Part shown: positions 12,390-39,409 of the stretch, in pieces | Layout of the letters: every line of letters starts with the position of its first letter | Position numbering within the stretch: the stretch's first letter is position 1 | IMG/VR virus record: IMGVR_UViG_3300040810_001033 | Coordinates: 1 to 40,808 of that record | Strand: one strand, 5' to 3' | Source: a virus | DNA length: 40,808 nt | Notes under the pieces: model-generated | What the model was told of the DNA's origin: nothing | Database searches by the model: none | Seen by the model: the letters and a program-made list of their open reading frames with translations, nothing else | Made by a program: the position numbers and the translations under genes

Positions 12390-12390
12390 T

Positions 12391-12496
12391 TATTTGCGCT
12401 AAATGTGGCCGGATTCCTTGCGCGTTATTCGGTGGGAGCGTATAAGTATTGTGTCGGGGGGGAGAGATGACCAACACCCCCCGGCGGGAGATGACC
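12391..12496 (+). promoter_or_regulatory. Cassette promoter P1 and leader (repeat family, copy 1)
   Basis: This gap carries a block shared with three other sites (30389, 34371, 35183): TTTGCGCTAAATG...GCCGGATTCC, then TTGCGC (12418-12423). Here TATAAG lies exactly 17 bases downstream (12441-12446), a good sigma70-type -35/-10 pair. The G-rich leader (GGGGGGAGAG) and the GGAG-ATGACC-ATG start region also recur. It would drive the small genes at 12497 and 12981 and possibly the baseplate genes beyond. Transcription is inferred. Confidence 0.68.
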
Positions 12497-12937
12497 ATGA
12501 GCAACGCAGTCACCAACCCCGCCGCCCTCTCCGTTAACGCCCGCATTCATGCGGACGGCGTGACGGTCTCCTACGATGACCACGACGCGGGAGAGCGTGA
12601 CGAGGTCACGGTCCCCACCCGCGACCACGCGCGCGCCCTCGTGGGCCTGGTTCGCATGGCCGAGGCCGCCGGGCTGGAGATCGTGAGCGTTCGCGCCTGT
12701 CGCGACGGACGTAACTACTCTGTCAATGTGGACGTGGAGGTCGGGGGAATCATCGGGAGCCTGTCTCACTACTGGTGCCGAGGTACCCATGGAGCAAACG
12801 GGTTTGCCTACACCGGTTCCGTCAAGGCACAGGGCCGGATCCGCGCCACCCTGCGGAATCGCATCCTGACCGCCCAAGACCGCGCCGAAGGATACGAGCC
12901 CGGCGATATGCTGGCCGACTTCATCCCCGCCACCTGA
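12497..12937 (+). CDS. Unknown protein of cassette 1, 146 aa
   Basis: Three in-frame ATGs exist (12467, 12491, 12497). I choose 12497 because GGGAG lies 6 bases upstream, the same spacing as in the other cassettes. The protein opens MSNAVTNPAALSVNARIHADGVTVSYDDHDAGERDEVTVP. It has mixed alpha/beta character with a conserved-looking middle (VRACRDGRNYSVNVDVEVGGIIG) and lone Cys residues. No family is recognised. It interrupts the baseplate operon, has its own promoter and shares its opening MSNA with the next gene. I regard it as a moron-type accessory gene, possibly acting against the host; that is speculation. Confidence 0.75.
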   Translation: MSNAVTNPAALSVNARIHADGVTVSYDDHDAGERDEVTVPTRDHARALVGLVRMAEAAGLEIVSVRACRDGRNYSVNVDVEVGGIIGSLSHYWCRGTHGANGFAYTGSVKAQGRIRATLRNRILTAQDRAEGYEPGDMLADFIPAT

Positions 12938-12945
12938 CCACCACC

Positions 12946-12961
12946 GCCCCCTCACGGGGGC
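12946..12961 (+). terminator. Intercistronic G/C hairpin of cassette 1
   Basis: GCCCCC-TCAC-GGGGGC. The same hairpin, in the same CACC context, lies between the first and second genes of cassette 2 (30732-30747), and a related one in cassette 3. No T-run follows, so it may attenuate or protect mRNA rather than terminate. Confidence 0.5.
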
Positions 12962-12980: not shown

Positions 12981-13166
12981 ATGAGCAACGCAATCACCGA
13001 CGACCACATCGAACAACTAGCCACCGAGGCCGGCGCCGCCGGTGACCTCGAGACCGTCCACCTGTGCCACGCCGCCCTGGAGGGGGACGAGGACGCCCTC
13101 CACGAGGTAACGGCGTGTATCCTATGGGCGCGGGAGATGGCCGCGGAGGGAGACGAGTATGAGTGA
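12981..13166 (+). CDS. Small acidic protein of cassette 1, 61 aa
   Basis: ATG 12981 has GGAG at 12971-12974 and the ATGACC spacer shared by the cassettes. The 61-residue protein (MSNAITDDHIEQLATEAGAAGDLETVHLCHAALEGDED...) is strongly acidic and helical, resembling small helix-turn-helix-like Asp/Glu proteins or DNA mimics. It shares its first residues with the preceding cassette gene (MSNA), as does the leader DNA (GGAGATGACCATGAGCAACG), which suggests duplication of the start region. Function unknown. Confidence 0.65.
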   Translation: MSNAITDDHIEQLATEAGAAGDLETVHLCHAALEGDEDALHEVTACILWAREMAAEGDEYE

Positions 13167-14800: not shown

Positions 14801-14931
14801 CCGCGGCCGTGGTGAGCTCCGAGCTCGTGGTGAGCTCCGAGCTCGTGGTGAGCTCCGAGCTCGTGGTGAGCTCCGAGCTCGTGGTGAGCTCCGAGCTATC
14901 CTATACACGGACGACTAGCCGCGGCCGTGGT
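14783..14931. repeat. 31-bp direct repeat flanking five 18-bp tandem repeats
   Basis: The 31-base segment 14783-14813 (CTATACACGGACGACTAGCC... ) recurs at 14901-14931, offset 118 bases. Between and overlapping them lie five copies of an 18-base unit, GTGGTGAGCTCCGAGCTC, at 14809-14898; the last copy ends in A instead of C. Each unit contains two GAGCTC palindromes. The unit is six codons, so frame +1 reads through as (RGELRA)n ending ILYTDD, the same tail as the spike. The block fills the gap between spike and gp25-like genes, 141 bases. It could be a recombination scar, a structured RNA or an assembly artefact. Confidence 0.92.
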
Positions 14932-23540: not shown

Positions 23541-24656
23541 ATGACCACACGCTCACGCTATGACCTGGACGCGCGGCCGGTGGCGCCGGTGGACGCGTTG
23601 CTGACTCTCGGGAGGAAGGGCCGCAACGGCGCCCCCGTCGGGAAGGATCGATTCTGGATCGTGTCGCCGGACCTGGAGACCAGGGAATTCCAGGCCCGCG
23701 GGGGCCGCACGTACCGCGGCGAAATCCACCCGCTCCACCCGGCTCTCGAGGAATGGCACCGGGACGCCACGGACGAGGAGCGCCGGACGATCACGTATGA
23801 GGTGGAGGCCGCGCGGGTCACGGACGCGATCGAGATCGGACGCGCGCGACCCAAGGCCCCGGACGGCCGGGAGACTCCGACAAAGACGGAGTGGTGCCGA
23901 CAGGTGGAGCGGGGCCGCGCCGCGTCGTGGGATTTCGCCGCCGGACGGTGGACGCCGCGGGCCTGTGCTGGCGACGCATGCCCGGACGCGCGCGGGTGCA
24001 AGCCACGCCTCCAGGTGATCGGCCGCCTCGTCTGGACGGGCCGGTGGGCTCACCTCCCCCGCCTCCGTGTCCGCCTCCGCTCCCGTGGATGGGGGGCGGC
24101 CAAAGGCCACATGGGCGTGGTGGAGCTGCTGGATTCGACGTGGGCCGGGTACATGATCGCCGCGTCCGGTCGGTACGATCTCCAGGGTCTCCCGTGGCAT
24201 GATGTCCACGTCCAGGCGGGCCTCCCGGACTACCTGGCCGCCGGTCTCCAGGTCCGCGCGCACCTCCACGAGGTGACCCGCGACGGGGGACGCCGCCGCT
24301 ACTGGGCGATCCGCGCGTCCACCGTCCAGCCTATGGCGGATTGGCTGGAATCACAGCGCCGCCGGGTGGACCTGGCCCGCGTGATCCGTGGGACCGCGGA
24401 CGCCATACCGGCCCCCACGGACGCCTCGGAGGCCCCTAGCGTCGCGCCCACGCCGTCCCCGGTGGACGAGGTGGACCCGGCCCTCCAGGGACGCCGGGAG
24501 GCCGCCCACGCGTACCTCGTGGAGCACGGGTATCCGCTGGACGAGGTGGCCGCCGTCACCGAGGGGAGGACGCCGGCCACCTGGACGGCGGAGGACCTGG
24601 ACGAGATCCGACACATGATCCGACGCGGCCGCGTGGCCGCCGGGGGGGAAGAATGA
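23541..24656 (+). CDS. Gp3-like / recombination-directionality-factor-like zinc protein
   Basis: The 371-residue protein starts at ATG 23541 with AGGAGGT upstream. The opening LGRKGRNGAPVGKDRFWIVSPD, a GRTYRGEI segment, and the Cys cluster ACAGDACPDARGCKPR (about 140-155) recall the Gp3-like family of phage proteins (phiC31 gp3 being the recombination directionality factor). The middle (GRLVWTGRWAHLPRLRVRLRSRGWGAA) and C-terminal helices are less clear. No integrase is present here, so a replication or ssDNA-handling role is more likely than excision. Family recognition is from memory. Confidence 0.5.
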   Translation: MTTRSRYDLDARPVAPVDALLTLGRKGRNGAPVGKDRFWIVSPDLETREFQARGGRTYRGEIHPLHPALEEWHRDATDEERRTITYEVEAARVTDAIEIGRARPKAPDGRETPTKTEWCRQVERGRAASWDFAAGRWTPRACAGDACPDARGCKPRLQVIGRLVWTGRWAHLPRLRVRLRSRGWGAAKGHMGVVELLDSTWAGYMIAASGRYDLQGLPWHDVHVQAGLPDYLAAGLQVRAHLHEVTRDGGRRRYWAIRASTVQPMADWLESQRRRVDLARVIRGTADAIPAPTDASEAPSVAPTPSPVDEVDPALQGRREAAHAYLVEHGYPLDEVAAVTEGRTPATWTAEDLDEIRHMIRRGRVAAGGEE

Positions 24657-24934
24657 CACAGCGAACGATCAAGGCTTGGACGGCCCTCACGATGGCCGCC
24701 GCGTGGATGCTTATGGGGGCGGCCCGCGCCGTCCTCGTGGCGGTCTCTCCCGCGCCGCGGCCACGGAGGCGAGACACCCCAGAGCGCCGCGCGGAGTACG
24801 CGGCACACATTCTATCTTTCGGCCACAGCCGGGAGGAGATCGCGGAGCACAGCGCCGCCGCGATCTGTCTCCGTGAGCAGGTGATCGCGGACCTGGAGGA
24901 CGAGATCCGACGCATGACCGGGGGTGACGCATGA
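24653..24934 (+). CDS. Small membrane-anchored protein, 93 aa
   Basis: ATG 24653 overlaps the previous stop (ATGA). A hydrophobic segment (ALTMAAAWMLMGAARAVLVAV, about 11-31) is a likely signal anchor. It is followed by an Arg-rich stretch (PRPRRRDTPERRAEY) and a charged helical tail (SREEIAEHSAAAICLREQVIADLEDEIRRMTG). The C-terminal gene edge carries the CGGGGGT-GACGCATG hairpin that also surrounds the next two starts. Function unknown. Confidence 0.6.
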   Translation: MTQRTIKAWTALTMAAAWMLMGAARAVLVAVSPAPRPRRRDTPERRAEYAAHILSFGHSREEIAEHSAAAICLREQVIADLEDEIRRMTGGDA

Positions 24935-24940
24935 CCCCCG
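24919..24940 (+). promoter_or_regulatory. Start-codon hairpin, copy 1
   Basis: CGGGGGT (24919-24925) pairs with ACCCCCG (24934-24940) around the loop GACGCATG. The GGGGGTG Shine-Dalgarno is in the stem and the ATG (24931) in the loop, so translation is probably coupled to unwinding by ribosomes from the gene upstream. Copies occur at 25632-25653 and 26294-26315. Confidence 0.7.
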
Positions 24941-25647
24941 CATACGTGCTCACATACGGGAAACACGCGACGCGCGAGCAGGGCATGTGCCTACTTGAAG
25001 CCGTCGCCTACATCGCGGGCGAGCCGCATAACGACACACCAGAGTGCGCCTGCGGCGTTCTGGCGGCATACGGGCGATCGCTGAATGACGTCATGGGGGA
25101 GGGTCCAGAGGGCGACGCGCTACGCGACCGGTACCTGGGCGACATCGCGCCGCTACTGGTCGGGACACGCAGCACGCCCGAGGTGGAGAGGCGGCGGGCG
25201 TATCTGCTGGCGGATCGCGCCGTGCGTGTGATCGCGCCGATGGCGCTAGAGGCTGTCGATCTGCACGACCACGCAGCGACGCTGCGAGCGCTCGCGCCTG
25301 TCACCGACGCAGCCACCGCCCGCGCCGCCTATGCTGCTGCCACCGTCGGCTGCGCCGCCGCCCGCGCCGCCGCCTACGCCGCCGCCCGCGCCGCCCGCGC
25401 CGCTGGTGCCGCCGCCGCCTACGCCGCTGGTGCCGCCGCCGCCTACGCCGCTGGTGCCGCCGCCGATGCCGTCGATTCCGCCGCCCGCGCCAACGCCCGC
25501 GTCGCTATGCCCGATTCCGCCGCCGATGCCGCCCGCGCCGCCGCCGATGCCGCCCGCGCCGCCCGTGTCGCCGACCCTGACACCGTGTGGGCAGAGGCAC
25601 GTCAGGCGCTGATCGATGCGATCCAGATCTCCGGGGGTGACGCATGA
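24931..25647 (+). CDS. Ala-rich repeat protein, paralogue A (conserved phage family of unknown function)
   Basis: A 238-residue protein with a conserved globular N-terminus: GKHATREQGMCLLEAVAYIAGEPHNDTPECACGVLAAYGRSLND, then ALRDRYLGDIAPLLVGTRSTPEVERRRAYLLADRAVRVIAPMALEA. A C-terminal Ala-rich helical array (about residues 128-215; AARAAAYAAARAARAAGAAAAYA) follows. I recall similar proteins with GEMCxMEAVAYVAGE and Ala/Trp/Asp repeats in actinophages; function unknown. The next gene is a paralogue: about 70 percent of the N-terminal residues match by eye. Codon use differs from the rest of the phage (GCC runs, no CGTGAG/CTCACG). Confidence 0.8.
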   Translation: MTPAYVLTYGKHATREQGMCLLEAVAYIAGEPHNDTPECACGVLAAYGRSLNDVMGEGPEGDALRDRYLGDIAPLLVGTRSTPEVERRRAYLLADRAVRVIAPMALEAVDLHDHAATLRALAPVTDAATARAAYAAATVGCAAARAAAYAAARAARAAGAAAAYAAGAAAAYAAGAAADAVDSAARANARVAMPDSAADAARAAADAARAARVADPDTVWAEARQALIDAIQISGGDA

Positions 25648-25653
25648 CCCCCG
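25632..25653 (+). promoter_or_regulatory. Start-codon hairpin, copy 2
   Basis: CGGGGGT / ACCCCCG around GACGCATG, with ATG 25644 in the loop, identical to copy 1 over 22 bases. It lies at the junction of the two Ala-rich paralogues and probably marks the duplication joint. Confidence 0.72.
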
Positions 25654-26309
25654 CATACACGCTCACACATGGGCCACACGCCACGCGAGAGCAGGGGATG
25701 TGTTTGCTGGAAGCCGTCGCATGGCTCGCGGGCGAGCCGCATAGCGACAGGCCAGAGTGTGCCTGCGGCGTGTTGGCAGCATACGGGCGATCGCTGAATG
25801 ACGTCATGGGCGAGGGCGCTGGCGGCGACGCACTGCGCGCCCGGTACCTGGGCGACATCGCGCCCATGCTCGTCGGGACACGCAGCACGCCCGAGGTGGA
25901 GAGGCGGCGGGCGTATCTGCTGGCGGATCGCGCCGTGCGTGTGATCGCGCCGATGGCACTAGACGCTGCCGGCCTGCACGACCACGCCGCGACGCTGCGA
26001 GGGCTGGATCCCGTCACGGATGAGGGCACCGCCCGTGCCGCCAAGGCCGTCGCTGGTGCCGCCGCATGGGCCGCCGTCGATGCCGCCGAGGCCGCCGCCC
26101 GCGCCGCTGGTGCCGCCGCCGAGGCCGCCGCATGGGCCGCCTACGCCGCCGCCGATGCCGCCGCCGCATGGGCCGCCGCCCGCGCCGCCGCCATCGCCGC
26201 CGCCCGTGTCGCCCATGCCGCCGCCCGTGTCGCCGACCCTGACACCGTGTGGAGCGAGGCACGCCGAGCGCTGATCGATGCGATCCAGATCTCCGGGGGT
26301 GACGCATGA
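25644..26309 (+). CDS. Ala-rich repeat protein, paralogue B
   Basis: The 221-residue tandem paralogue of 24931-25647. N-termini match almost residue for residue (MTPAYTLTHGPHATREQGMCLLEAVAWLAGEP) and both end DTVWxEARxALIDAIQISGGDA. The Ala-rich middle (about 128-200) has a different repeat phase with Trp (AAWAAYAAADAAAAWAA), so these repeats evolve quickly. Both genes start inside the same hairpin. Their DNA lacks the CGTGAG hexamer typical of the other genes. The family is unknown to me by function; a structural or antagonist role is speculation. Confidence 0.8.
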   Translation: MTPAYTLTHGPHATREQGMCLLEAVAWLAGEPHSDRPECACGVLAAYGRSLNDVMGEGAGGDALRARYLGDIAPMLVGTRSTPEVERRRAYLLADRAVRVIAPMALDAAGLHDHAATLRGLDPVTDEGTARAAKAVAGAAAWAAVDAAEAAARAAGAAAEAAAWAAYAAADAAAAWAAARAAAIAAARVAHAAARVADPDTVWSEARRALIDAIQISGGDA

Positions 26310-26737: not shown

Positions 26738-27183
26738 GCCCCTCCGTCCTGTCCCGCGTGGCCGCCGCCATAGAGGCCCACGACGTCACCCGGATCCGTC
26801 TCGGGGCGATCCCTACGCCACTGGCTGAGCTAGACCGACTCCGCGCCGCGGGTCTCCTCCGCCTGGAGGGCGGCCGGGTCGGATTGACTCCCGCCGGGTG
26901 GCGCATCGTCCAGGAGACCGACAGGTGGATCGGACCCGTGGAGACCTACACGCAGACGCTACCGGAGGCCCGCCGCGTGGGTCTCCGCGTCGCGCGCGCC
27001 CTGGACGACCTGGCCGGCCGGTGGGTCGGGTCGGACGAGGTGGCACGGGTCGCCGGGGTCTCGAGGAAGTCCGCGCGGGAGTGGCTCTCTCGGCTGTGGC
27101 GGGACGGACAGATCCACAAGCAGATGGGACACCGGATCCCCGGGGACCATGCACCCAACGCGTACCTATGGAGATCGAGATGA
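26734..27183 (+). CDS. Protein with two winged-helix-like domains, 149 aa
   Basis: ATG 26734 overlaps the previous stop. Residues about 22-62 (LGAIPTPLAELDRLRAAGLLRLEGGRVGLTPAGWRIV) look like one winged-helix with a strand-turn wing. Residues about 95-130 (GRWVGSDEVARVAGVSRKSAREWLSRLWRDGQIHKQ) look like a second. This suggests a small transcription or replication factor. It overlaps the methyltransferase start by ATGA at 27180-27183. Confidence 0.58.
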   Translation: MSPSVLSRVAAAIEAHDVTRIRLGAIPTPLAELDRLRAAGLLRLEGGRVGLTPAGWRIVQETDRWIGPVETYTQTLPEARRVGLRVARALDDLAGRWVGSDEVARVAGVSRKSAREWLSRLWRDGQIHKQMGHRIPGDHAPNAYLWRSR

Positions 27184-28586
27184 CACACAGACCACACGGA
27201 CACCCGTCGCGCGCGGGTCATCGACTAGGCCGCCACCTCGTCCACGCCGGGGACAATCTGGACATGCTTCGGAGGCTACCGGACAATTCCGTGGACGCCG
27301 TGGTGACGGATCCGCCGTATGGTCTCGGACGCCACCCGGACGCGGTGGCCATGCTCCGGGACTGGCTGGACACGGGCTATCACGAGGTCAAGGGGACCGG
27401 ATTCATGGGGCGACGCTGGGACGCGTTCGTGCCTCAGCCCGTCCTGTGGCGTGAGGTGGCGCGGGTGTTGAAACCGGGCGGCCACCTCGTGGCTTTCTTT
27501 GGGACGCGGACGTATGACGTGGGGACCTTGTCGATCCGTCTGGCTGGCCTGGAGGTCCGGGACGCCCTGGCGTGGGTCTATGGGAGCGGGTTTCCGAAAT
27601 CTCACAACGTCTCAGCAGCAATCGATCGCCAACTTGGAGCGACACGGGAAAAGATAAGGATCGACGCGGGAAGTGTCCGCAACCCTAAAAGCGTAAACGG
27701 CGGGCACGGCATCGATGGCGGGGATCGTCCGTGGATGCAGCAAGCACGCGCGCGGGGCTACCATGAGACGGACGGACCCGACGCCGTAACGGACGCCGCG
27801 CGCGCGTGGGACGGGTGGGGTACCGCCCTGAAGCCAGCGCTAGAGCCGATCGCCCTGTGTCGCCTCCCGCCCTCGGAGTCCTCGATCGCCAGGAACGTCC
27901 TGCGGTGGGGGACGGGGGGGATCAACGTCCGAGGCTGTGAGGTCCCGGCGGGACCGGGCCACGACGCGCGGAGGCCGTCCGCGGGTGGAGAGAATGGACT
28001 GGGTGGATCGTCCACATTCAAGATCCGGGAGCGCCGGGTGGAGGACCAACCGCGACGCGCGGGCCGCTGGCCCGCCAACCTGATCCACGACGGGAGCCCG
28101 GAGGCCGTGGCGGGGATGCCGGAGACGGGGGTCTCCGGGGCGGCTAGGAACGGGCGCCCCTCCGCCGCCCTGAACCGGGGGAGCATCGGACCCGGTGGCG
28201 GACTCCATGGCAACGGGGCGCTACACGCGGACCACGGATCCGCCGCCCGCTATTTCTACTCCGCCAAGACCTCCCCGGCGGAACGGGCCGGATCGCGCCA
28301 CCCGACGATTAAGCCCCTGGCCCTCATGCGGTACCTCGTCCGTCTCGTGACGCCGCCGGGTGGCGTGGTCCTCGATCCGTACCTCGGGAGCGGGACGACC
28401 CTTCTAGCCGCGGAGGCCGAGGGGGTCACCTGCTACGGGGCGGAGGCGGAGCACCTGGAGGACATCCTCCACCGGTGGGACCACCGACGCGAGATCCGCC
28501 GCGCGTCCGAGGGCGTCCAGGAGACCGCCGGGGGACGTGACGAGCACGAGGCACAGGGGGAGCTGTTCCCGGGGGTGGTGTCGTGA
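27180..28586 (+). CDS. DNA methyltransferase (N6-adenine / N4-cytosine type)
   Basis: I start at ATG 27180 (468 aa), overlapping the previous stop; a longer reading from 26898 is another frame of the upstream gene. Motif IV TDPPYG (43-48) is near the N-terminus and the SAM-binding DPYLGSGTT (motif I) near the C-terminus, the beta-class order. Between them are FFGTRTYDVGTL and HPTIKPLALMRYLVRL. No restriction endonuclease is adjacent, so this is an orphan methylase, probably shielding phage DNA from host restriction or modifying regulatory sites. The recognition site cannot be told. It ends overlapping the helicase start. Confidence 0.85.
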   Translation: MTHRPHGHPSRAGHRLGRHLVHAGDNLDMLRRLPDNSVDAVVTDPPYGLGRHPDAVAMLRDWLDTGYHEVKGTGFMGRRWDAFVPQPVLWREVARVLKPGGHLVAFFGTRTYDVGTLSIRLAGLEVRDALAWVYGSGFPKSHNVSAAIDRQLGATREKIRIDAGSVRNPKSVNGGHGIDGGDRPWMQQARARGYHETDGPDAVTDAARAWDGWGTALKPALEPIALCRLPPSESSIARNVLRWGTGGINVRGCEVPAGPGHDARRPSAGGENGLGGSSTFKIRERRVEDQPRRAGRWPANLIHDGSPEAVAGMPETGVSGAARNGRPSAALNRGSIGPGGGLHGNGALHADHGSAARYFYSAKTSPAERAGSRHPTIKPLALMRYLVRLVTPPGGVVLDPYLGSGTTLLAAEAEGVTCYGAEAEHLEDILHRWDHRREIRRASEGVQETAGGRDEHEAQGELFPGVVS

Positions 28587-30352: not shown

Positions 30353-30384
30353 CGATCCCGTGGTGGTGGGGATCGTGGGTTTTT
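30352..30384 (+). terminator. Terminator at the end of the helicase operon
   Basis: ACGATCCC (30352-30359) pairs with GGGATCGT (30369-30376), loop of 9, followed by GGG and TTTTT (30380-30384). It lies directly upstream of the cassette-2 promoter and closes the operon that ends with the helicase. Confidence 0.78.
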
Positions 30385-30470
30385 CTTCGCTTAAATGAGC
30401 CGGATTGGTTGCGCGTTACAGGGGGCCACCATAAGAGCATTTCACCGGGGGGGACGAACCGCCCCGCAGA
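30385..30470 (+). promoter_or_regulatory. Cassette promoter P2 and leader (copy 2)
   Basis: TTCGCTTAAATGAGCCGGATTGG then TTGCGC (30409-30414) and CATAAG (30430-30435; spacer 15), followed by AGCATTTCACCGGGGGG. This block matches P3 (34373) and P4 (35183) almost base for base and P1 in its first half. The conserved leader beyond the promoter suggests control of transcription start and translation together. Confidence 0.68.
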
Positions 30471-30482
30471 CTGGAGATGACC

Positions 30483-30722
30483 ATGACGATCCACACCCTG
30501 ACCAACCCGCGCGCCACCTCCTCCGGGGAGGTCCACCGCGTCCACTACGTGATCACGGGGGACCGCGCGATCGTCGTCCTGGAGGACACCATGATGGACC
30601 GGGCCACCCCGGCCACCCTGGAGGCCGCGCGCGCGGACTACCGGGAGCGCCTCCGTAGGGGCCACCGGCCCACGGAGACCTCACCACAGGCGCGCCGCCG
30701 CCTCGTCCGTGACCTGACCTGA
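30483..30722 (+). CDS. Unknown small protein of cassette 2, 79 aa
   Basis: ATG 30483 is chosen because GGAG lies 6 bases upstream, as in the other cassettes (an ATG at 30477 is also in frame). The 79-residue product (MTIHTLTNPRATSSGEVHRVHYVITGDRAIVVLEDTMMDRATP...) has a short beta part followed by an Arg-rich helix (LEAARADYRERLRRGHRP). It is not recognised. It may be a small nucleic-acid- or host-protein-binding factor. Confidence 0.68.
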   Translation: MTIHTLTNPRATSSGEVHRVHYVITGDRAIVVLEDTMMDRATPATLEAARADYRERLRRGHRPTETSPQARRRLVRDLT

Positions 30723-30731
30723 CCACCCACC

Positions 30732-30747
30732 GCCCCCTCACGGGGGC
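30732..30747 (+). terminator. Intercistronic G/C hairpin of cassette 2
   Basis: GCCCCC-TCAC-GGGGGC in the context CACCGCCCCCTCACGGGGGC, the same as in cassette 1 (12946-12961). The next gene's Shine-Dalgarno follows. No T-run. Confidence 0.5.
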
Positions 30748-30766
30748 CACACGAGGAGAGGACGAC

Positions 30767-31183
30767 ATGACCGACACGACCACACCGCTGAGCATGCGCC
30801 ACGAGGGCGCGACGTTCTACATGAGCATGAAGCAGCATGGGCTGTGCGCTGAGCTGACCGTGAATCTTCAGTGGTGCCCGGACTGGAACGATCCGCGCCA
30901 CGAGGAGAGCCGGATCCATTCCGTCACGCTGGCGCGCGAGATCGGAGAGGGGGAGACGTGGCAGATCACCCGCGCGGAATGCCACGACATGGCCGCCGGC
31001 TACCCGGTCAAGATGGATCGCATCTTTGCGCCGGGCCTCCCGGAGACGGAGATGGTGGGGACGTGGCTGGATTGGGTCTCCCTCACGGCGATCAAGCTGG
31101 CGCCGATCATGCCCGATCCCCAGGGACTCCTGGAGATCACCCACCCGGATCGCGGCGCCGTCGCTGAGCGCGTCCGCGCGTGA
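30767..31183 (+). CDS. Unknown protein of cassette 2, 138 aa
   Basis: ATG 30767 has GGAGAGG upstream. The protein is mixed alpha/beta with a Trp-rich part (NLQWCPDWNDPRHEESRIHSVTLAREIGEGETWQITRAECHDMAA). It ends overlapping the primase-type gene by GTGA, so it is probably co-translated with it. I do not recognise a family. Codon use includes more unusual choices (CATGGG, GTCACGCTGG) than the structural genes. Confidence 0.68.
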   Translation: MTDTTTPLSMRHEGATFYMSMKQHGLCAELTVNLQWCPDWNDPRHEESRIHSVTLAREIGEGETWQITRAECHDMAAGYPVKMDRIFAPGLPETEMVGTWLDWVSLTAIKLAPIMPDPQGLLEITHPDRGAVAERVRA

Positions 31184-31866
31184 GGGACGCCCTGGACCGC
31201 CTCCGAGCGCTCACGCCCACGGAGGCCCTGCAACGGGCCGGGGCGGAGCATCGGGGCCGGGGACGGTGGGGACCGTGTCCGGCGTGTGGGGACGACAGGA
31301 GCCGGGGGATCCTGCTGGTGTCCTCCCGCGCCTGGACGTGCCAATCTTGCCGAGCCTCCGCGGACGCCATCGGGACCGCGGCCCTACTCGCCACCGGGGA
31401 CCGCCGGGCCGGTGGCGATTGGTCCGCCGTCGCCACGTGGGCCGAGGTCCACGGGTGGATCACGGACGACGGGATCACCGTGCCGCCGCCGCCCAAGACA
31501 GAGACGATCCGCGGGACCCTCCCGGCCTACCCGGACGAGGTGGAGACGGACTCCACCGCGTGGCGTCGTCATCTCCGGGAGACGGACCCGCCTGTGGTGG
31601 CCGCCCTGGCGTCCCACGCCGTGGCGGCCGGCTACCCGGACGCGTGGGCCGTGGACGAGGCCCGGAGCTACCACGAGGCCCGGGAGGCCGACGTGAGACA
31701 CGATCGCGCGCGTGTGGCGTGGCTGGCGAGGATGGCCCGGTGGATGCGTAGGGAGGGCCTCGAGGACGCCGCGCGCGTCTATGCGTCCACAGCATGGGCC
31801 GTGTGGAGGCGGTCCTCCACGGTGGACGAGACACGACAGCGCCCCCGCCGATCGTGGTATCGGTAG
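31180..31866 (+). CDS. Zinc-binding protein, primase CHC2-like
   Basis: GTG 31180 overlaps the previous stop. Near the N-terminus the protein has a four-cysteine zinc ribbon, Cys33-x2-Cys36 (CPAC) and Cys54-x2-Cys57 (CQSC), in the frame LRALTPTEALQRAGAEHRGRGRWGPCPACGDDR. This matches the DNA-binding zinc domain of bacterial and phage primases. The rest (to 228) is helical with no obvious TOPRIM acidic motifs, so it may supply the DNA-recognition part of a split primase working with the DUF927-type ATPase downstream. Confidence 0.6.
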   Translation: MRDALDRLRALTPTEALQRAGAEHRGRGRWGPCPACGDDRSRGILLVSSRAWTCQSCRASADAIGTAALLATGDRRAGGDWSAVATWAEVHGWITDDGITVPPPPKTETIRGTLPAYPDEVETDSTAWRRHLRETDPPVVAALASHAVAAGYPDAWAVDEARSYHEAREADVRHDRARVAWLARMARWMRREGLEDAARVYASTAWAVWRRSSTVDETRQRPRRSWYR

Positions 31867-31885
31867 ACGACCCCCAAAACAGAGA

Positions 31886-31913
31886 CGCCCTCCCGGTGGG
31901 GACCGGGAGGGCG
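31886..31913. promoter_or_regulatory. Perfect 12-bp hairpin before the DUF927 gene
   Basis: CGCCCTCCCGGT (31886-31897) pairs with ACCGGGAGGGCG (31902-31913), loop GGGG. The AGGAG Shine-Dalgarno (31916-31920) follows directly. On the reverse strand the hairpin is followed by TCTCTGTTTTGGGG, so it may end transcription entering from the right or stabilise the mRNA. Confidence 0.6.
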
Positions 31914-31928
31914 CCAGGAGATGACAAC

Positions 31929-33908
31929 ATGCCGGGAGACCAATCCCAACATGGGAGACCTACCACAGCAGAGCAGAGGGATCAAGCGCTAGAGGCCCTC
32001 CGTCTCTGCGTGGAGGCCGTGACGCGCACACCAGAGGACGTGGACACGTGGCGCGGGTGGCTCGCGCGGGTCCCCGCCGGGGACGGCGCCGCCCTCGTGG
32101 GCGTCCGGGAGGTGGACGTCCTCCTGGAGAGGATGGCCACCGTCCCGGGCTACTCGGCCCGCGCCACCGCCGCGCGTCGCATCCTACGGAGCTACCACAC
32201 GCCGGGACCACAGATCCGCGTCGTCCAGGGCGGCACCGACGCCCCCGCCGTGTCCCTATCGGAGAGGATGGCCGCGGACGGATACCACGACGCCCCGGAC
32301 GGGCTCGAGGTCCCGGACGGCTACCGGATCCGGGGATCGGAGATCGTCCGGGTCACCTCGGAGGACCGGGAGGACGTGACCGTATCCGAGCGCCCGATCG
32401 CGATCGTCGGACGTGCCACGGACGCGGAGACCGGGGAGGCGTCCGTCTCCGTGGCGTGGCGATACGAGGACCGGTGGATCTCCGAGACCGTGAGCCGATA
32501 CACCGTCTCGGACGCGCGCGCCCTCGTGGCCCTGTCCCGCCGCGGGGCGCCGGTGGACTCCACCACCGCCTCCGAGGTCGTCCGGTGGCTGAGGCGACAG
32601 GAGAGCGCCGCGGACGGCCTCCCCTCCGTGGCGTCCATGGAGCGACTAGGGTGGACGCCGGACGGGACCGGGTACCTATGGGGTACCCAGTCCATAGGCC
32701 AGCCCGTCCACCTCGTCCCGCCGGGAGAGGGGGAGCGATCCCGGGCCGAGGGGTACCGCGCGCGCGGGACCCTGGAGGGATGGATCCGGGACGTCTGGAC
32801 GCCCTCCCGGGACCAACCGGCCGGACTCGTGATCCTGGCTGCACTAGCCGCCCCCCTCGTCCAGGTCCTAGACGGCCCCGGGTGGACCATGGACATCGGA
32901 GGCCCGCCGGGGACCGGAAAGTCCGCCGCCCTCAAGGCCGCCCTCAGCGCGTGTGGAGACCCGGCCGCCCTGTGGCACCTGTGGGGACCCAACTGGGCCG
33001 GCGTGAGAAACGCGCTGCAATTCGCCCATTCCGCCCCGTGTGTCCTGGACGACACCAAACACACCGCGGGCGACTGGAGCGTGGTCCAGCGGGTGGTGTA
33101 CACCGCCTACGACCGCGCGTCCCAAGCCCTCGGACAGGTGGGGGGAGGCACCCAACGCGCGCGCCCCGTGAGGACGATCGTCCTCTCCACCGGGGAGAGC
33201 CGGATCGCGTCCCACTGTGCGGACGCCGGGGGCGCCGCGTCCCGTATGCTCACCGTGGACCGCGCGCCGTGGGCCGACGTCGACACGGCGCCACGGATCC
33301 ACGACGCCGTCCAGGAGCACCACGGCCACGTCCTCCCGCTCGTGGTCCGGTGGCTACTGGACCACCGGGAGCGGTGGGGGGATCTGCGGACACGGTGGCG
33401 AGAGATCCACCGCGCGCGTACCGAGGGGGAGCGCCGCGCGGACGTGATCCGCGTGGCACAGCTTCCCGCCATGCTCGAGATCGCCGCCTCCGTCGTCCGC
33501 CGCGCCGCCGGGATCGACGTCCCCCGCGCCCTCCTGGGTATGGCGTGGGACCTGGCCACGGCCGCGGAGGCCGAGAGAGACACGGCCGCCACGGCGTGGC
33601 GCTGTGTCGAGCAATACCGCGCCACGCGTCCCGACAGGTGGGCCGGGGTGGCGGACGCGCGGACGCCCTACCTGGGACGACAGACCGGCGCCGCGGTCTA
33701 CTGGACGCGGGAGGGACTGGACGAGGCCCTCCGATCGGGGGGCTACTCCGCCGCGGACGTCCTCCCCATGTGGGCCGCGCGTGGCTGGCTGGAAACCGCC
33801 ACGTCCGGTGGCTACCAGGTGAGGCGGACGATCGGACCCGTCCGCGTGTGGGTCTATGGGCTACTCCGTGGGAGAGGGCCGGACGCCCACGAGGACGCGG
33901 AGGGCTAG
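31929..33908 (+). CDS. DUF927-type replication ATPase/helicase
   Basis: I start at ATG 31929 (659 aa), 8 bases after AGGAG. The ATPase core reads IGGPPGTGKSAALKAAL (Walker A, 324-332) and CVLDDTKH (Walker B, 371-378), with SGYL-like sensor segments after it, matching the DUF927 replicative family. The N-terminal 300 residues are acidic and variable; the C-terminal part, to GLLRGRGPD, is helical. It probably acts as the phage replicative helicase or primase-helicase together with the zinc protein directly upstream and the iteron origin at 35.8-36.2 kb. Confidence 0.72.
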   Translation: MPGDQSQHGRPTTAEQRDQALEALRLCVEAVTRTPEDVDTWRGWLARVPAGDGAALVGVREVDVLLERMATVPGYSARATAARRILRSYHTPGPQIRVVQGGTDAPAVSLSERMAADGYHDAPDGLEVPDGYRIRGSEIVRVTSEDREDVTVSERPIAIVGRATDAETGEASVSVAWRYEDRWISETVSRYTVSDARALVALSRRGAPVDSTTASEVVRWLRRQESAADGLPSVASMERLGWTPDGTGYLWGTQSIGQPVHLVPPGEGERSRAEGYRARGTLEGWIRDVWTPSRDQPAGLVILAALAAPLVQVLDGPGWTMDIGGPPGTGKSAALKAALSACGDPAALWHLWGPNWAGVRNALQFAHSAPCVLDDTKHTAGDWSVVQRVVYTAYDRASQALGQVGGGTQRARPVRTIVLSTGESRIASHCADAGGAASRMLTVDRAPWADVDTAPRIHDAVQEHHGHVLPLVVRWLLDHRERWGDLRTRWREIHRARTEGERRADVIRVAQLPAMLEIAASVVRRAAGIDVPRALLGMAWDLATAAEAERDTAATAWRCVEQYRATRPDRWAGVADARTPYLGRQTGAAVYWTREGLDEALRSGGYSAADVLPMWAARGWLETATSGGYQVRRTIGPVRVWVYGLLRGRGPDAHEDAEG

Positions 33909-33992
33909 ATGTGGACGATCCTGGACGACGTGGCGACCGTGACCGCGATCGTTGTGGTCGTCGTGGTCGTGGCGGCAATCCTTGCGCATTAG
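33909..33992 (+). CDS. Tiny single-span membrane protein, 27 aa
   Basis: ATG 33909 immediately follows the DUF927 stop. The 27 residues are mostly Val/Ile/Ala (VTAIVVVVVVVAAILAH) and would form one membrane span. No Shine-Dalgarno is obvious, but coupling to the gene upstream is possible. It could be chance; low-confidence. Confidence 0.4.
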   Translation: MWTILDDVATVTAIVVVVVVVAAILAH

Positions 33993-34053
33993 GCGCACCT
34001 ATGCGAGACTGGACGGGGGACGCATGCACGCCCCGAAACGTGGAGATGACAAC

Positions 34054-34230
34054 ATGATCGAATTGACTCTATCTGTCCTGGCCGTCCTCGGATTTGGCTT
34101 CACCGCCTACGAGATCGCCATTTTAGACCGATGCACCGCGTGTGAGATGGTGGACATCGTGGTCTGTGGTGACGATCTGACGTATGACCCGCTCGCGGGG
34201 GAGTGTGTGAGCGATCGGACCCTGCTGTGA
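34054..34230 (+). CDS. Small membrane protein with cysteines, 58 aa
   Basis: ATG 34054, with TGGAG 8 bases upstream. The first 24 residues are hydrophobic (LTLSVLAVLGFGFTAYEIAIL), followed by four Cys (27, 30, 38, 51) in a short acidic domain. It may be membrane-anchored with a small Cys-bound head. It overlaps the next tiny gene by GTGA at 34227-34230. Confidence 0.55.
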   Translation: MIELTLSVLAVLGFGFTAYEIAILDRCTACEMVDIVVCGDDLTYDPLAGECVSDRTLL

Positions 34231-34316
34231 TCCCGGACGTCCTGGAGTTCGTCCTGGTCATGGTCGGGTCCTCCTCCGTGGTCCTGGCCATGCTGGACGC
34301 CGCGGGGACCGACTAG
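34227..34316 (+). CDS. Tiny membrane protein, 29 aa
   Basis: GTG 34227 overlaps the previous stop. The 29 residues hold one hydrophobic span (LEFVLVMVGSSSVVLAML). It is the last gene before the terminator at 34335. The overlap supports a real gene, but length makes this uncertain. Confidence 0.42.
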   Translation: MIPDVLEFVLVMVGSSSVVLAMLDAAGTD

Positions 34317-34334
34317 GCCGGGACCTCGAGGACG

Positions 34335-34372
34335 CCCACGATCCGCGCCACGGCGGGATCGTGGGTTTTTTT
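34335..34372 (+). terminator. Strong intrinsic terminator
   Basis: CCCACGATCC (34335-34344) pairs perfectly with GGATCGTGGG (34356-34365), followed by seven T (34366-34372). It closes the DUF927 operon and abuts the cassette-3 promoter. Confidence 0.88.
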
Positions 34373-34440
34373 CGCCTAAACGTGGCGGATTGGTTGCGCG
34401 TTAGAACGGGGCACCATAAGAGCATTTCACCGGGGGGAGA
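34373..34440 (+). promoter_or_regulatory. Cassette promoter P3 and leader (copy 3)
   Basis: CGCCTAAACGTGGCGGATTGG, TTGCGC (34394-34399), 15-base spacer, CATAAG (34415-34420), then AGCATTTCACCGGGGGGAGA. Matches P2 and P4 in order and spacing. Terminator and promoter are back to back, insulating the cassette. Confidence 0.68.
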
Positions 34441-34470
34441 GACCAACCCCCGCCGAGAGGAGAGGACGAC

Positions 34471-34737
34471 ATGAACGCCACCATCGATATCACCGACACC
34501 CGCCTTTCGGCCGCCGCCGCCGCCGAGGGAAACGCCGAGTCCTACGCGAGCTTCGGAGAGGGCTTCGCGGCCGTCTCCGCGCCGCACCCGGACCTCGAGG
34601 ACGGCCGCCTCGTCCATTACGTGGAGCTTGATGGCGAGCCGATCCGAACGAGCCAGGGAGGGATTGACACCTACCCGTCCCGCTCCGCGGCCGTTTTCGC
34701 CGCGAAGACGAAGGCGCGACGCGCCGCATCGGTGTAG
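34471..34737 (+). CDS. Unknown protein of cassette 3, 88 aa
   Basis: ATG 34471 has GAGGAGAGG upstream. The 88-residue product starts MNATIDITDTRLSAAAAAEGNAESYASFGEGF and ends with a basic tail (AAKTKARRAASV). It contains a short strand pair (RLVHYVELDGEPIRT) like small beta-hairpin proteins. No family recognised. In organisation it is like the first genes of the other cassettes. Confidence 0.68.
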   Translation: MNATIDITDTRLSAAAAAEGNAESYASFGEGFAAVSAPHPDLEDGRLVHYVELDGEPIRTSQGGIDTYPSRSAAVFAAKTKARRAASV

Positions 34738-34767
34738 GCATCGTGTCTGTGTACGCGTGAGACCACC

Positions 34768-34783
34768 GGCCCCCGCGGGGGCC
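34768..34783 (+). terminator. Intercistronic G/C hairpin of cassette 3
   Basis: GGCCCCCGCGGGGGCC, a perfect 16-base palindrome in the same GACCACCGG context as the hairpins of cassettes 1 and 2. Not followed by T. Confidence 0.5.
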
Positions 34784-34801
34784 ACGACAGGAGAGGACAA
34801 C

Positions 34802-34981
34802 ATGACCAAGACGGAAGCCAATCAAGCCCTGCGACGCCGGGGGCTCACGTGGCGCTCAGATCACTACAGGATCGTGGACACCCTGGCCGGCCACCTGTTC
34901 GCGCGGAGTAGCCGAACCCTGGACGCGTGGCACGAGTGCTGGGCGGCCGCGGAGAAGGTGGCGTCACGGTGGGAGGTGTGA
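34802..34981 (+). CDS. Small basic protein of cassette 3, 59 aa
   Basis: ATG 34802 has AGGAGAGG upstream. The 59 residues (MTKTEANQALRRRGLTWRSDHYRIVDTLAGHLFARSSRTLDAWHECW...) are helical and aromatic, with two Trp/His-rich parts. It ends with a 4-base overlap to the next gene (GTGA at 34978-34981). Function unknown. Confidence 0.62.
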   Translation: MTKTEANQALRRRGLTWRSDHYRIVDTLAGHLFARSSRTLDAWHECWAAAEKVASRWEV

Positions 34982-35175
34982 CCCCCCACGACGGGGCGGA
35001 GTGCATGGTGTGCCACGCGCGGACGGGTCTCGAGCACGTGACGTACTACCCGCCGGGGTGGACGGGGCGCGTGGACTGGATCTGTAGCGAGGGGGATCGC
35101 CGGTGGACCACGTGTCAGCTGGTGATCCTCCGCCGGGAGAGGATGCACGAGCGGGAGGGGATGCGGATTGGCTGA
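34978..35175 (+). CDS. Small Cys-containing (zinc-finger-like) protein, 65 aa
   Basis: GTG 34978 overlaps the previous stop. Cysteines at CMVC (9, 12) and later at WICSEGD and TTCQLV (36, 46) could bind zinc. The end is basic (LRRERMHEREGMRIG). It may be a small zinc-ribbon nucleic-acid-binding protein. It is followed by the cassette-4 promoter without a clear terminator. Confidence 0.58.
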   Translation: MTPHDGAECMVCHARTGLEHVTYYPPGWTGRVDWICSEGDRRWTTCQLVILRRERMHEREGMRIG

Positions 35176-35182
35176 TTTATTT

Positions 35183-35252
35183 TCGCCTAAATGAGCCGGA
35201 TTCCTTGCGCGTTAGAACGGTGCACCATAAAGGCACTTCACCGGGGGGACGG
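35183..35252 (+). promoter_or_regulatory. Cassette promoter P4 and leader (copy 4)
   Basis: TCGCCTAAATGAGCCGGATTCC, TTGCGC (35205-35210), 15-base spacer, CATAAA (35226-35231), then GGCACTTCACCGGGGGG. Nearly the same as P2 and P3. Here no hairpin terminator precedes it. Confidence 0.66.
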
Positions 35253-35279
35253 AACACCCCGCGGACAGGAGAGACCAAC

Positions 35280-35600
35280 ATGGACATCAACCTCGACACC
35301 TTCGACGCCGCAACCGCAGACTACAACGCCGCATTCGCCGCCGAGGACCGGGCCTGTAGCCGCGCCTACAGCGCCGAGCGCCAACACGCCGCCCTGGTCC
35401 GCCACGTCCAGCGGGGACGCTGTACCGCAGAGCGCGCCGCGCCGTCCCTGGCCATCTACGAAGAGGTCGCGCGCAAGTACCGCGGTATCCAGCGCGCCGC
35501 CGCGGCACGGATCGACCTGCTAGACCGGATCGCGTCCGCCCAGCAGTGGGAGCGCATCCAGGCCCGCAAGCGTGCGCGACTGGCCCGGATCGCATCCTAG
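35280..35600 (+). CDS. Helical protein of cassette 4, 106 aa
   Basis: ATG 35280 has AGGAGAG upstream. The 106-residue protein is all-helical with charged heptads (DYNAAFAAEDRACSRAYSAERQHAALVRHVQRG; YEEVARKYRGIQRAAAARIDLLDRIASAQQWERIQARKRARLARI) and a strongly basic end. It could be a small DNA- or RNA-binding coiled coil. It is followed by a terminator (35619) and then the origin region, so it may act in replication. Not recognised. Confidence 0.68.
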   Translation: MDINLDTFDAATADYNAAFAAEDRACSRAYSAERQHAALVRHVQRGRCTAERAAPSLAIYEEVARKYRGIQRAAAARIDLLDRIASAQQWERIQARKRARLARIAS

Positions 35601-37367: not shown

Positions 37368-37431
37368 CGTTGCCACCCCAAACGATGCGCGTTAAAGCGC
37401 CGAATGTATGCAAAAGAACGGAGACCGACAC

Positions 37432-37699: not shown

Positions 37700-39409
37700 A
37701 TGCCCACCATACGCGATCGGATCCTGGACTGGCTGGACCTCACGCCCCCACCGGACCCCCCGGACGAGGCCCGCGCGGACGGCGTGATCCAGTCCTCCAC
37801 CATGGGATTCGGGATGACCGGCCGGGACCGGGTGGACGACGTGACACCCAAGACGGGGATCCGCTGGTGGTCTCGGGGCCAGCTACTCCACAGCTACATG
37901 CGGGGCGGGATCGCGCGCCGCCTAGCCGTGGCGCCCCCGCTGGACGCGATCCGCCACGGGTACACGGTCACCACGGACACGGAGGACGAGGAGACGACGC
38001 CCCGCGCCCTCCACGTCCGCCGCGCCGCCGTCCAGGCCCGCCAGTATGCCCGGGCATTCCGCGGCGCCCTCGTCTATGTGAGGGTCGATGGGGACCAATC
38101 CGTCCCCCTCGGAGACGGCCCCCACGACGTCCGCGCCGTCCATGTGATCATGCCCTCCGAGGCCACGCCGTCCGCCCTGTCACGTCAGGCGGACGCGGAT
38201 CGGCCGGACTGGACGGCCCCGGAATTCTGGGACCTCCACCCGACACGGCCGGGGCTATCGTTCACCGGGGAGCGCCGGGTCCACGCGTCCCGCGTGATCG
38301 TCGTCCCCGGGCTGGACGTCCCGCTGGACGTGACGCCACCGGACGACGGATTTCAGGCGGCCGTCCTGGACGTGTACTGGGAAAGCCTCCGCAACCTGGA
38401 GATCGTGACGTCCTCCACCACGTCCCTCATGTCCGAGCGATCGGTGGCCGTGTATGAGCAGGACGGCAGCGGCGCCGCGTCCGGCCGTGACGGGGTGTCG
38501 TGGCTGGACCGCCTCCGCGCCCTCCGCCGGGCTACTTCGGTCCTCGGGGCGATCACGCTCCCGCCGGGGTGGCGTATGTCCCGCATGGACGCGGCGATCA
38601 CCGGGTGGCGTGATGCGAAAGTGTCCGCCTATGAGGACGTCGCAAGCGTGGAGGGGATCCCCCCCGCCGTGGCGATCGGTACCCCACCGGCCGGGATGAC
38701 CTCGGACGATCAAGCGTCGCGCCGGACGTACCACCGACTCCTGGACGGACAGGAGCGCCCGATCCTCGAGGACGTGATCCTCCGCATCCATGAGATCCTC
38801 CACGGCGCGGACGAGTCCCGCCGGATGATCTGGCCCGCCCTGGAGGAGCCCACCGCCATAGAGCGCGCCCAGATCTCCGCCACCCTGGCCCAGCGTGACG
38901 CCGCCCTGTATGCCGCCCAGATCGTGGAGCGGGACGAGATCCGCGGCCGCCACCTCGGGGACCGGGAAATCGAGTATCTCCAGATGGACGCCGCCCTGGA
39001 CGACGGGGCGGACGCGATCACGGTGGACCCGGACTCCACCGTGACCCTGGAGGACCTCATGAGGGCGGACGCGGAGACCTACCGCGCCCCGGAGTCCGCC
39101 AGGAACAACGCGCGCCGCGTCCTACGGTGGCGGGAGAAACACGGGGACGAGGTCAAGGGTATGACCCGCGTGGGCTGGACCCGCGCGCGCCAGTTGGCCG
39201 ACGGCCGCCCCCTGTCCCGGGAGACCGTGGGCAGGATGGCCGCCTTTGAGCGCCACCGGAAGAATTCCGAGGTGGCGCCGGAATACAAAGACACCCCCTG
39301 GAGAGACGCCGGCTATGTGGCGTGGCTTGGATGGGGAGGGGACACCGGGATCGCGTGGGCCGCGGAGATCGTGGGCCGTGGGGACGATAAGTCCACCCGG
39401 GAGGGGTAG
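37700..39409 (+). CDS. Portal protein (DUF1073 type) with a C-terminal extra domain
   Basis: A 569-residue protein from ATG 37700. The N-terminal 450 residues resemble DUF1073 portals: the stem (STMGFGMTGRDRVDDVTPKTGIRWWSRGQLLHSYMRGGIARRLAV), the FRGALVYVRVDGD region and the EGIPPAVAIGTPPAGMTSDDQASRRTYHRLLDG segment. It forms the dodecameric DNA entry port. After about residue 460 comes a separate module (ARNNARRVLRWREKHGDEVKGMTRVGWTRARQLADGRPLSRETVGRMAAFERH...YVAWLGWGGDTGIAWA) that I recall at the ends of various phage head proteins. Family members are sometimes named anti-CBASS Acb1; see the rejected list. Confidence 0.83.
   Translation: MPTIRDRILDWLDLTPPPDPPDEARADGVIQSSTMGFGMTGRDRVDDVTPKTGIRWWSRGQLLHSYMRGGIARRLAVAPPLDAIRHGYTVTTDTEDEETTPRALHVRRAAVQARQYARAFRGALVYVRVDGDQSVPLGDGPHDVRAVHVIMPSEATPSALSRQADADRPDWTAPEFWDLHPTRPGLSFTGERRVHASRVIVVPGLDVPLDVTPPDDGFQAAVLDVYWESLRNLEIVTSSTTSLMSERSVAVYEQDGSGAASGRDGVSWLDRLRALRRATSVLGAITLPPGWRMSRMDAAITGWRDAKVSAYEDVASVEGIPPAVAIGTPPAGMTSDDQASRRTYHRLLDGQERPILEDVILRIHEILHGADESRRMIWPALEEPTAIERAQISATLAQRDAALYAAQIVERDEIRGRHLGDREIEYLQMDAALDDGADAITVDPDSTVTLEDLMRADAETYRAPESARNNARRVLRWREKHGDEVKGMTRVGWTRARQLADGRPLSRETVGRMAAFERHRKNSEVAPEYKDTPWRDAGYVAWLGWGGDTGIAWAAEIVGRGDDKSTREG

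Follow-up and report, generated by a model that had tools for sequence, protein, structure and literature searches.

Does the repeated block that precedes several small genes of the virus record IMGVR_UViG_3300040810_001033 take part in the exchange of those genes between phages? The whole record of 40,808 nucleotides (nt; 40.8 kb, GC content 70%) was analysed and is called the window (W). A block of ~105 bases lies upstream of the small genes at 12497, 30483, 34471 and 35280, giving four copies in W. Judged from sequence comparison, such blocks probably belong to composite joints that serve as exchange sites for accessory genes, similar in action to the promoter early stem-loops (PeSLs) of T4-type phages; a probability of roughly 0.75 was given to this reading. 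Two close relatives, contigs A (38,963 bp) and B (38,746 bp), were found in IMG/VR. Core genes of the three phages are collinear, with amino acid (aa) identity mostly 65-97%, and the comparison set consisted of these three genomes.

The motif TTGCGCGTTA was located in the four W blocks at 12418, 30409, 34394 and 35205. GGATTNNTTGCGCGTTA occurs without mismatch at 12411, 30402, 34387 and 35198; by chance 0.18 matches are expected even at three mismatches, and none of 100 shuffles reached five. CACCATAARRGCAYTTCACCGG was found only at 30427, 34412 and 35223, with 0 expected. Among themselves the three strong copies show 72-100% identity in a 98-nt alignment, and the copy at 12418 is a divergent fourth. 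A nhmmer profile trained on the blocks of A and B alone recovered exactly four W copies, with expectation values (E) of 2e-17 to 3e-9. An initial annotation of the window had described near-identical blocks before 30483, 34471 and 35280 and a divergent copy before 12497, and both the scans with GGATTNNTTGCGCGTTA and CACCATAARRGCAYTTCACCGG and the profile bear it out. The search of other phages that it had called for was run and found the block in A and B, so that its recurrence beyond W is documented, with four copies in W, seven in A and five in B. Every block is placed between the end of an upstream gene and a start codon. An IMG/VR scan with GGATTNNTTGCGCGTTA plus ATAA returned just two chance matches, inside unrelated coding sequence, and leader-anchored patterns returned relatives A and B only. 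A possible degenerate fifth copy at 33982 (TTGCGCATTA and a leader hairpin) stands before the gene at 34054-34230; it is weak and was missed by the profile.

The block has a recurring architecture. Read 5' to 3', the consensus starts with a T-run, which most copies carry just after a terminator hairpin, frequently CCCACGATCC...GGATCGTGGG. The T-run is followed by ~24 nt with degenerate copies of TTGCGCGTTAT, by TTGCGCGTTA and by a -10-like A/T-rich motif (CATAAG, TATAAG, TATACT or TATGCT). 3' of the -10-like motif are CACCGGGGGG or GTGTCGGGGGG, a loop of 8-15 nt often containing GACCA, a C-run, GGAG, and an ATG often followed by ACC. A leader hairpin of the GGGG...CCCC type is present in every W block. 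Leaders were more stable than dinucleotide shuffles (mean z = -1.9 over 16), and the hairpin may stabilise or regulate the mRNA; an Rfam scan of the window gave no match at the gathering threshold. On average, similarity to TTGCGCGTTAT is highest near -24 and -13, with two copies matching 10/11 at -24, and as a lead only these peaks suggest phased binding sites. An element resembling TTGCGCGTTA, with a different downstream part (ATGTATGCAA), was also observed at 37385-37405 (and at A579 and B30547), where it precedes a small conserved helix-turn-helix-like gene in all three phages (W37408/A629/B30597). The same factor possibly reads this element and the blocks.

In three W cassettes, and in several of those in A and B, a GC hairpin was found between gene 1 and gene 2. 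The initial annotation was right in placing it before the second gene in three cassettes: two copies are perfect (GCCCCC-TCAC-GGGGGC at 12946 and 30732) and a variant, GGCCCC-CGCG-GGGGCC, stands before 34802. The cassette at 35280 has a single gene and no intercistronic hairpin. As an isolated motif, GCCCCC-N4-GGGGGC is not rare in W (four at one mismatch against 2.1 expected, 12/100 shuffles), and the weight of the hairpin lies in its position and its recurrence in the relatives. In relative B, two tandem intercistronic GC hairpins were seen at 23857-23919, between genes B23464 and B23920; they could be the scar of a gene lost between two joints.

Payload turnover was followed through four equivalent slots. 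Slot 1 follows a Pam3 gp18-like baseplate gene, slot 2 (blocks in A only) the PD-(D/E)XK gene, slot 3 the helicase and slot 4 the primase. Core genes stay syntenic, and the first payload genes in equivalent slots are mostly unrelated. The initial annotation had left it to be checked whether the payloads are always the same genes; they are not, as the same slots hold different genes in W, A and B. The W gene at 30483 (slot 3, gene 1) and A38713 (slot 4, gene 2) share 96.5% nt identity, with homology running from the ribosome-binding site (RBS) to 6 nt beyond the stop codon and unrelated sequence upstream. Synonymous divergence (dS) of this pair is 0.064, against a median of 0.51 and a minimum of 0.255 over 32 W-A core genes, and the pair documents one recent cross-slot transfer. 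With a gene found in another slot at 97% identity, the question of exchange becomes directly testable. The W gene at 12497 (slot 1) is likewise homologous to A25525 (slot 2).

Breakpoints were found at the joints. The orthologues A38569 and B28055 (94%) share a common block and are followed by different genes, with the switch at the intercistronic hairpin; the genes after B28055 are the pair at 34802 and 35005 of W. In slot 2, relative A has an insert bounded on both sides by a terminator hairpin, whereas B has no insert and a single terminator there. Where A-B homology ends on entering a payload, it does so within -2 to +7 nt of the ATG of that payload in 5/5 cases (chance ~3e-7 under a uniform position model). 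The slot 3 block of W groups with the slot 4 blocks of W (84%, 79%) rather than with its slot 3 counterparts in A and B (61%, 58%), a pattern that movement or homogenisation of cassettes within a genome would produce. Different genes in the same slots, start-codon breakpoints, a cross-slot gene and an empty site together give comparative support to the modular expression platform with swapped payloads that had been proposed for W.

The repeated unit may thus be described as a composite joint that joins an upstream terminator (at most copies), a putative promoter region (TTGCGCGTTA and the -10-like motif), a leader hairpin, an RBS and a start codon. Each joint would insulate and drive one small accessory gene or mini-operon, and a second type of joint, a short GC hairpin with an RBS, would divide gene 1 from gene 2. 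Recombination between near-identical joints of co-infecting relatives could then insert, delete or replace the whole genes that they flank with expression unbroken; joint-to-joint homology would make exchange easy and harmless, and any gene between two joints would be expressed. The exchange would proceed by homologous or annealing recombination, and protein scans found a PD-(D/E)XK exonuclease-like protein and a RuvC-like resolvase encoded in W. The initial proposal of recombination between flanking blocks stands in so far as the blocks are one type of joint; it has to be widened to the intercistronic hairpin with its RBS as the other, and the mechanism itself is one that we infer. If this is true, a promoter-plus-hairpin exchange joint would be no peculiarity of T4 but a general solution, reached independently by T4-type phages and by an unrelated GC-rich clade. 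The joint would also mark swappable, probably early, orphan genes, which could be collected by joint rather than by homology.

Several observations weigh against this reading of the joints. Only three genomes are known, and A38713, the homologue of the transferred gene, is right at the end of contig A. An assembly chimera was considered for A38713 and thought unlikely: the junction shares only a short start-codon stretch, and ~3% of the gene positions differ from W. That the contig ends just after the gene speaks the other way. The -10-like motif follows TTGCGC by 15, 17 or 20 nt depending on the copy, and a sigma-70 consensus promoter scan that covered the slot 3 and slot 4 blocks of W scored none at them. 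For both reasons TTGCGCGTTA is not taken as a standard -35 element, and it is from position that the block is presumed to be an active promoter. Terminators were scored by the scanner at just two of the four W copies; none is evident at 12418, and a weak T-rich stretch alone is present at 35205. Covariation in the leader hairpin was not significant, with arms swappable between copies in folding energy (p = 0.14), and RNAalifold on the leaders gave four pairs only and no compensatory change.

The main rival holds that the blocks are ordinary regulatory regions of one phage regulon, read by one factor, and that payloads turn over by random illegitimate recombination with selection for intact genes, as in a moron-type mosaic, the blocks having no role in exchange. 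Regulatory sites are repeated in many phages, and TTGCGCGTTA also precedes the conserved core gene W37408/A629/B30597 with a different part downstream. Morons of lambdoid phages are accessory genes with their own promoter and terminator inserted between core genes, and the insert in slot 2 of A, with promoter, gene and terminator, is moron-like and fits that description. To our knowledge, however, morons have no common homologous joint that recurs at several places in a genome, as the joint does in W, A and B. Homology covers the whole joint of ~110-140 nt (terminator, leader and RBS) and ends at the ATG in 5/5 cases, A16725 and A17187 are 97% identical, W copies cluster across slots, and second-gene switches coincide with the intercistronic hairpin. 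On the three genomes compared, this rival is regarded as unlikely.

In another reading, leader and intercistronic hairpins are translational control sites bound by a phage protein, their loop often carrying GACCA, and the blocks mark a co-regulated translational regulon. The constant position of the hairpin just 5' of the RBS, the GACCA kept in the loop of most copies and a 5' CUUUC able to pair with the RBS in several copies would suit such a role, but arms could be swapped without significant loss of stability (p = 0.14), the four RNAalifold pairs came without compensatory change, and payload shuffling is left unexplained. This was judged quite improbable, and it could hold in addition to exchange. 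Least probable is a site-specific system in which a recombinase acts on TTGCGCGTTA or on the GC hairpin and the units are integron-like gene cassettes. The junctions are precise, and the cassette layout and junction hairpins recall attC sites; the scanned window proteins, however, included no integrase, transposase or integron integrase, the cassettes carry their own promoter-like region unlike those of integrons, and the joints are long diverged homologous stretches, not a short invariant core.

Exchange at composite joints has a close precedent. PeSLs are mobile regulatory cassettes of T4-type phages, described as composite promoter and stem-loop/terminator motifs between small accessory genes and credited with shuffling these among close relatives (PMC4503421, citing Arbiol 2010, Comeau 2014). 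Going by that account, W resembles them in having a repeated unit of terminator, predicted promoter and hairpin between small genes, and in the shuffling of adjacent genes between the close relatives W, A and B. It differs in being a 40.8-kb phage of 70% GC that is not T4-type, with relatives of its terminase, portal and DUF927 primase-helicase elsewhere, and in three features of its cassettes: a hairpin in the leader beside the RBS, a T-run terminator further upstream, and the intercistronic hairpin as a second kind of joint. The likeness is one of architecture and effect, and no sequence relation is expected. For the haloarchaeal virus HGTV-1, a TATA-like region and an inverted repeat are reported before many open reading frames (ORFs) and proposed to act like PeSLs (PMC3950731). 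As presented there, HGTV-1 shares with W a repeated promoter-like and inverted-repeat motif ahead of small ORFs; its promoter type is archaeal, and its shuffling was suggested from similarity to PeSLs, whereas exchange in W is seen between genomes. The initial annotation had called the W system undescribed, a claim that these two accounts overturn: because PeSLs do the same job in T4-type phages, the find is not an undescribed kind. By its predicted architecture the W system is of the same kind as PeSLs, and new are the unrelated GC-rich clade, the gene movement followed by comparison and the extra intercistronic joint.

The SAS/ESAS of Cluster K mycobacteriophages form a partial parallel, being a repeated element 5' of small genes of different families, one part of which lies close to the RBS while the other, further upstream, is an inverted repeat that contains a promoter (PMC3203893, PMC11373665). 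ESAS keeps to the same gene family across genomes (PMC3203893), unlike W, A and B, where unrelated genes follow one and the same slot and block and a given gene can be found in different slots. The 13-nt SAS consensus GGGATAGGAGCCC gave three matches in W at two mismatches against 2.6 expected, which is chance level, and none at the blocks. A wider proposal, in which a two-joint system for single-gene exchange with intact expression evolved independently of the PeSLs of T4, a phage factor reads phased TTGCGCGTTA-like repeats, and the payloads form an exchangeable set for host takeover or counter-defence, is tentative and on balance doubtful.

The payload proteins agree with the earlier description as unrelated and of no assigned family. 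Those of W had no family match, with no meaningful match in PADLOC or NCBIfam, and within the window none was detectably similar to another. Two payload families were searched in phages and IMG/VR; only relative A was matched, and nothing outside this clade. Payload pairs have a ratio of nonsynonymous to synonymous divergence (dN/dS) below 1, so the payloads are taken as real genes; they may serve host takeover or counter-defence. The protein encoded at 12497 has a predicted alpha/beta fold (predicted local distance difference test, pLDDT, 83), and the model had no Foldseek match at E ≤ 0.001. The RnlA N-terminal domain, top row in VIA-align (Z 6.2, root-mean-square deviation 3.1, 79 aligned), was rejected as a candidate, being not distinctive among unrelated folds at Z 5-6. 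The predicted structure for 30767-31183 was unusable (pLDDT 35). Coordinates of all cassette features are collected in Table 1.

Table 1. Cassette features of the window, in order of position.
Feature	Position	Strand	Support or relation
Block copy 1, slot 1, divergent; TTGCGC direct repeat at 12394 and 12418, TATAAG at -10, leader hairpin, RBS	12390..12496	+	A+B profile, E 3.4e-9
Payload gene, 146 aa, function unassigned	12497..12937	+	64% aa homologue in A slot 2 (A25525-25971)
Intercistronic GC hairpin GCCCCC-TCAC-GGGGGC	12946..12961	+	
Second payload gene, 61 aa, very acidic, charge -15	12981..13166	+	
Terminator-like hairpin and T-run; closes helicase operon, opens block	30357..30384	+	Terminator scan
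Block copy 2, slot 3; TTGCGCGTTA at 30409, CATAAG at -10, leader hairpin, RBS	30375..30482	+	A+B profile, E 5.6e-11
Payload gene, 79 aa, basic	30483..30722	+	Near-identical to A38713-38952 (slot 4, second gene)
Intercistronic GC hairpin GCCCCC-TCAC-GGGGGC	30732..30747	+	
Second payload gene, 138 aa, no homologue in relatives	30767..31183	+	
Possible degenerate fifth copy, TTGCGCATTA and leader hairpin	33982..34053	+	Weak
Terminator hairpin CCCACGATCC...GGGATCGTGGG and T-run, before block copy 3	34335..34373	+	Terminator scan
Block copy 3, slot 4; TTGCGCGTTA at 34394, CATAAG, leader hairpin, RBS	34362..34470	+	A+B profile, E 2e-17
Payload gene, 88 aa, orphan	34471..34737	+	
Intercistronic GC hairpin GGCCCC-CGCG-GGGGCC	34768..34783	+	
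Payload genes 2 and 3 (34802-34981, 35005-35175)	34802..35175	+	Homologues B28199, B28375 after different first gene
Block copy 4, slot 4; TTGCGCGTTA at 35205, CATAAA, leader hairpin, RBS	35172..35279	+	A+B profile, E 1.3e-12
Payload gene, 106 aa, basic, orphan; single-gene cassette	35280..35600	+	

Both ends of the window carry the same 127-base repeat, most simply the overlap of a circularised assembly. Protein scans identified a terminase, a portal, a tape measure, a baseplate-wedge-like protein, a DUF927 primase/helicase, a helicase and a methylase. Annotated phages include remote relatives of W only: nucleotide searches of them, near and distant, gave no match, and searches with portal and terminase in 84,980 bacterial and archaeal species genomes gave no prophage or host match. 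The C-terminal part of the portal protein (37700-39409), residues ~443-560, has ~46-55% identity to proteins from three viruses (Salicola phage SCTP-2, haloarchaeal virus HRTV-4 and one huge uncultured phage), a far closer database match than that of the portal domain itself.

In W, A and B, GATC is ~5x as frequent as base composition would give (509 sites in W against 111 expected, 549 in A and 591 in B), and these phages also encode an N6/N4 DNA methylase (27168-28586 in the window). A segment of ~300 bases is duplicated at 24918-25930 and 25277-26246 with 88% identity and runs of 9-15-nt repeats in both copies; its proteins (25093-25647 and 25806-26309) have no homologue in A or B. In the tail gene region, the 18-nt repeat GTGGTGAGCTCCGAGCTC is present in four tandem copies at 14801-14897.

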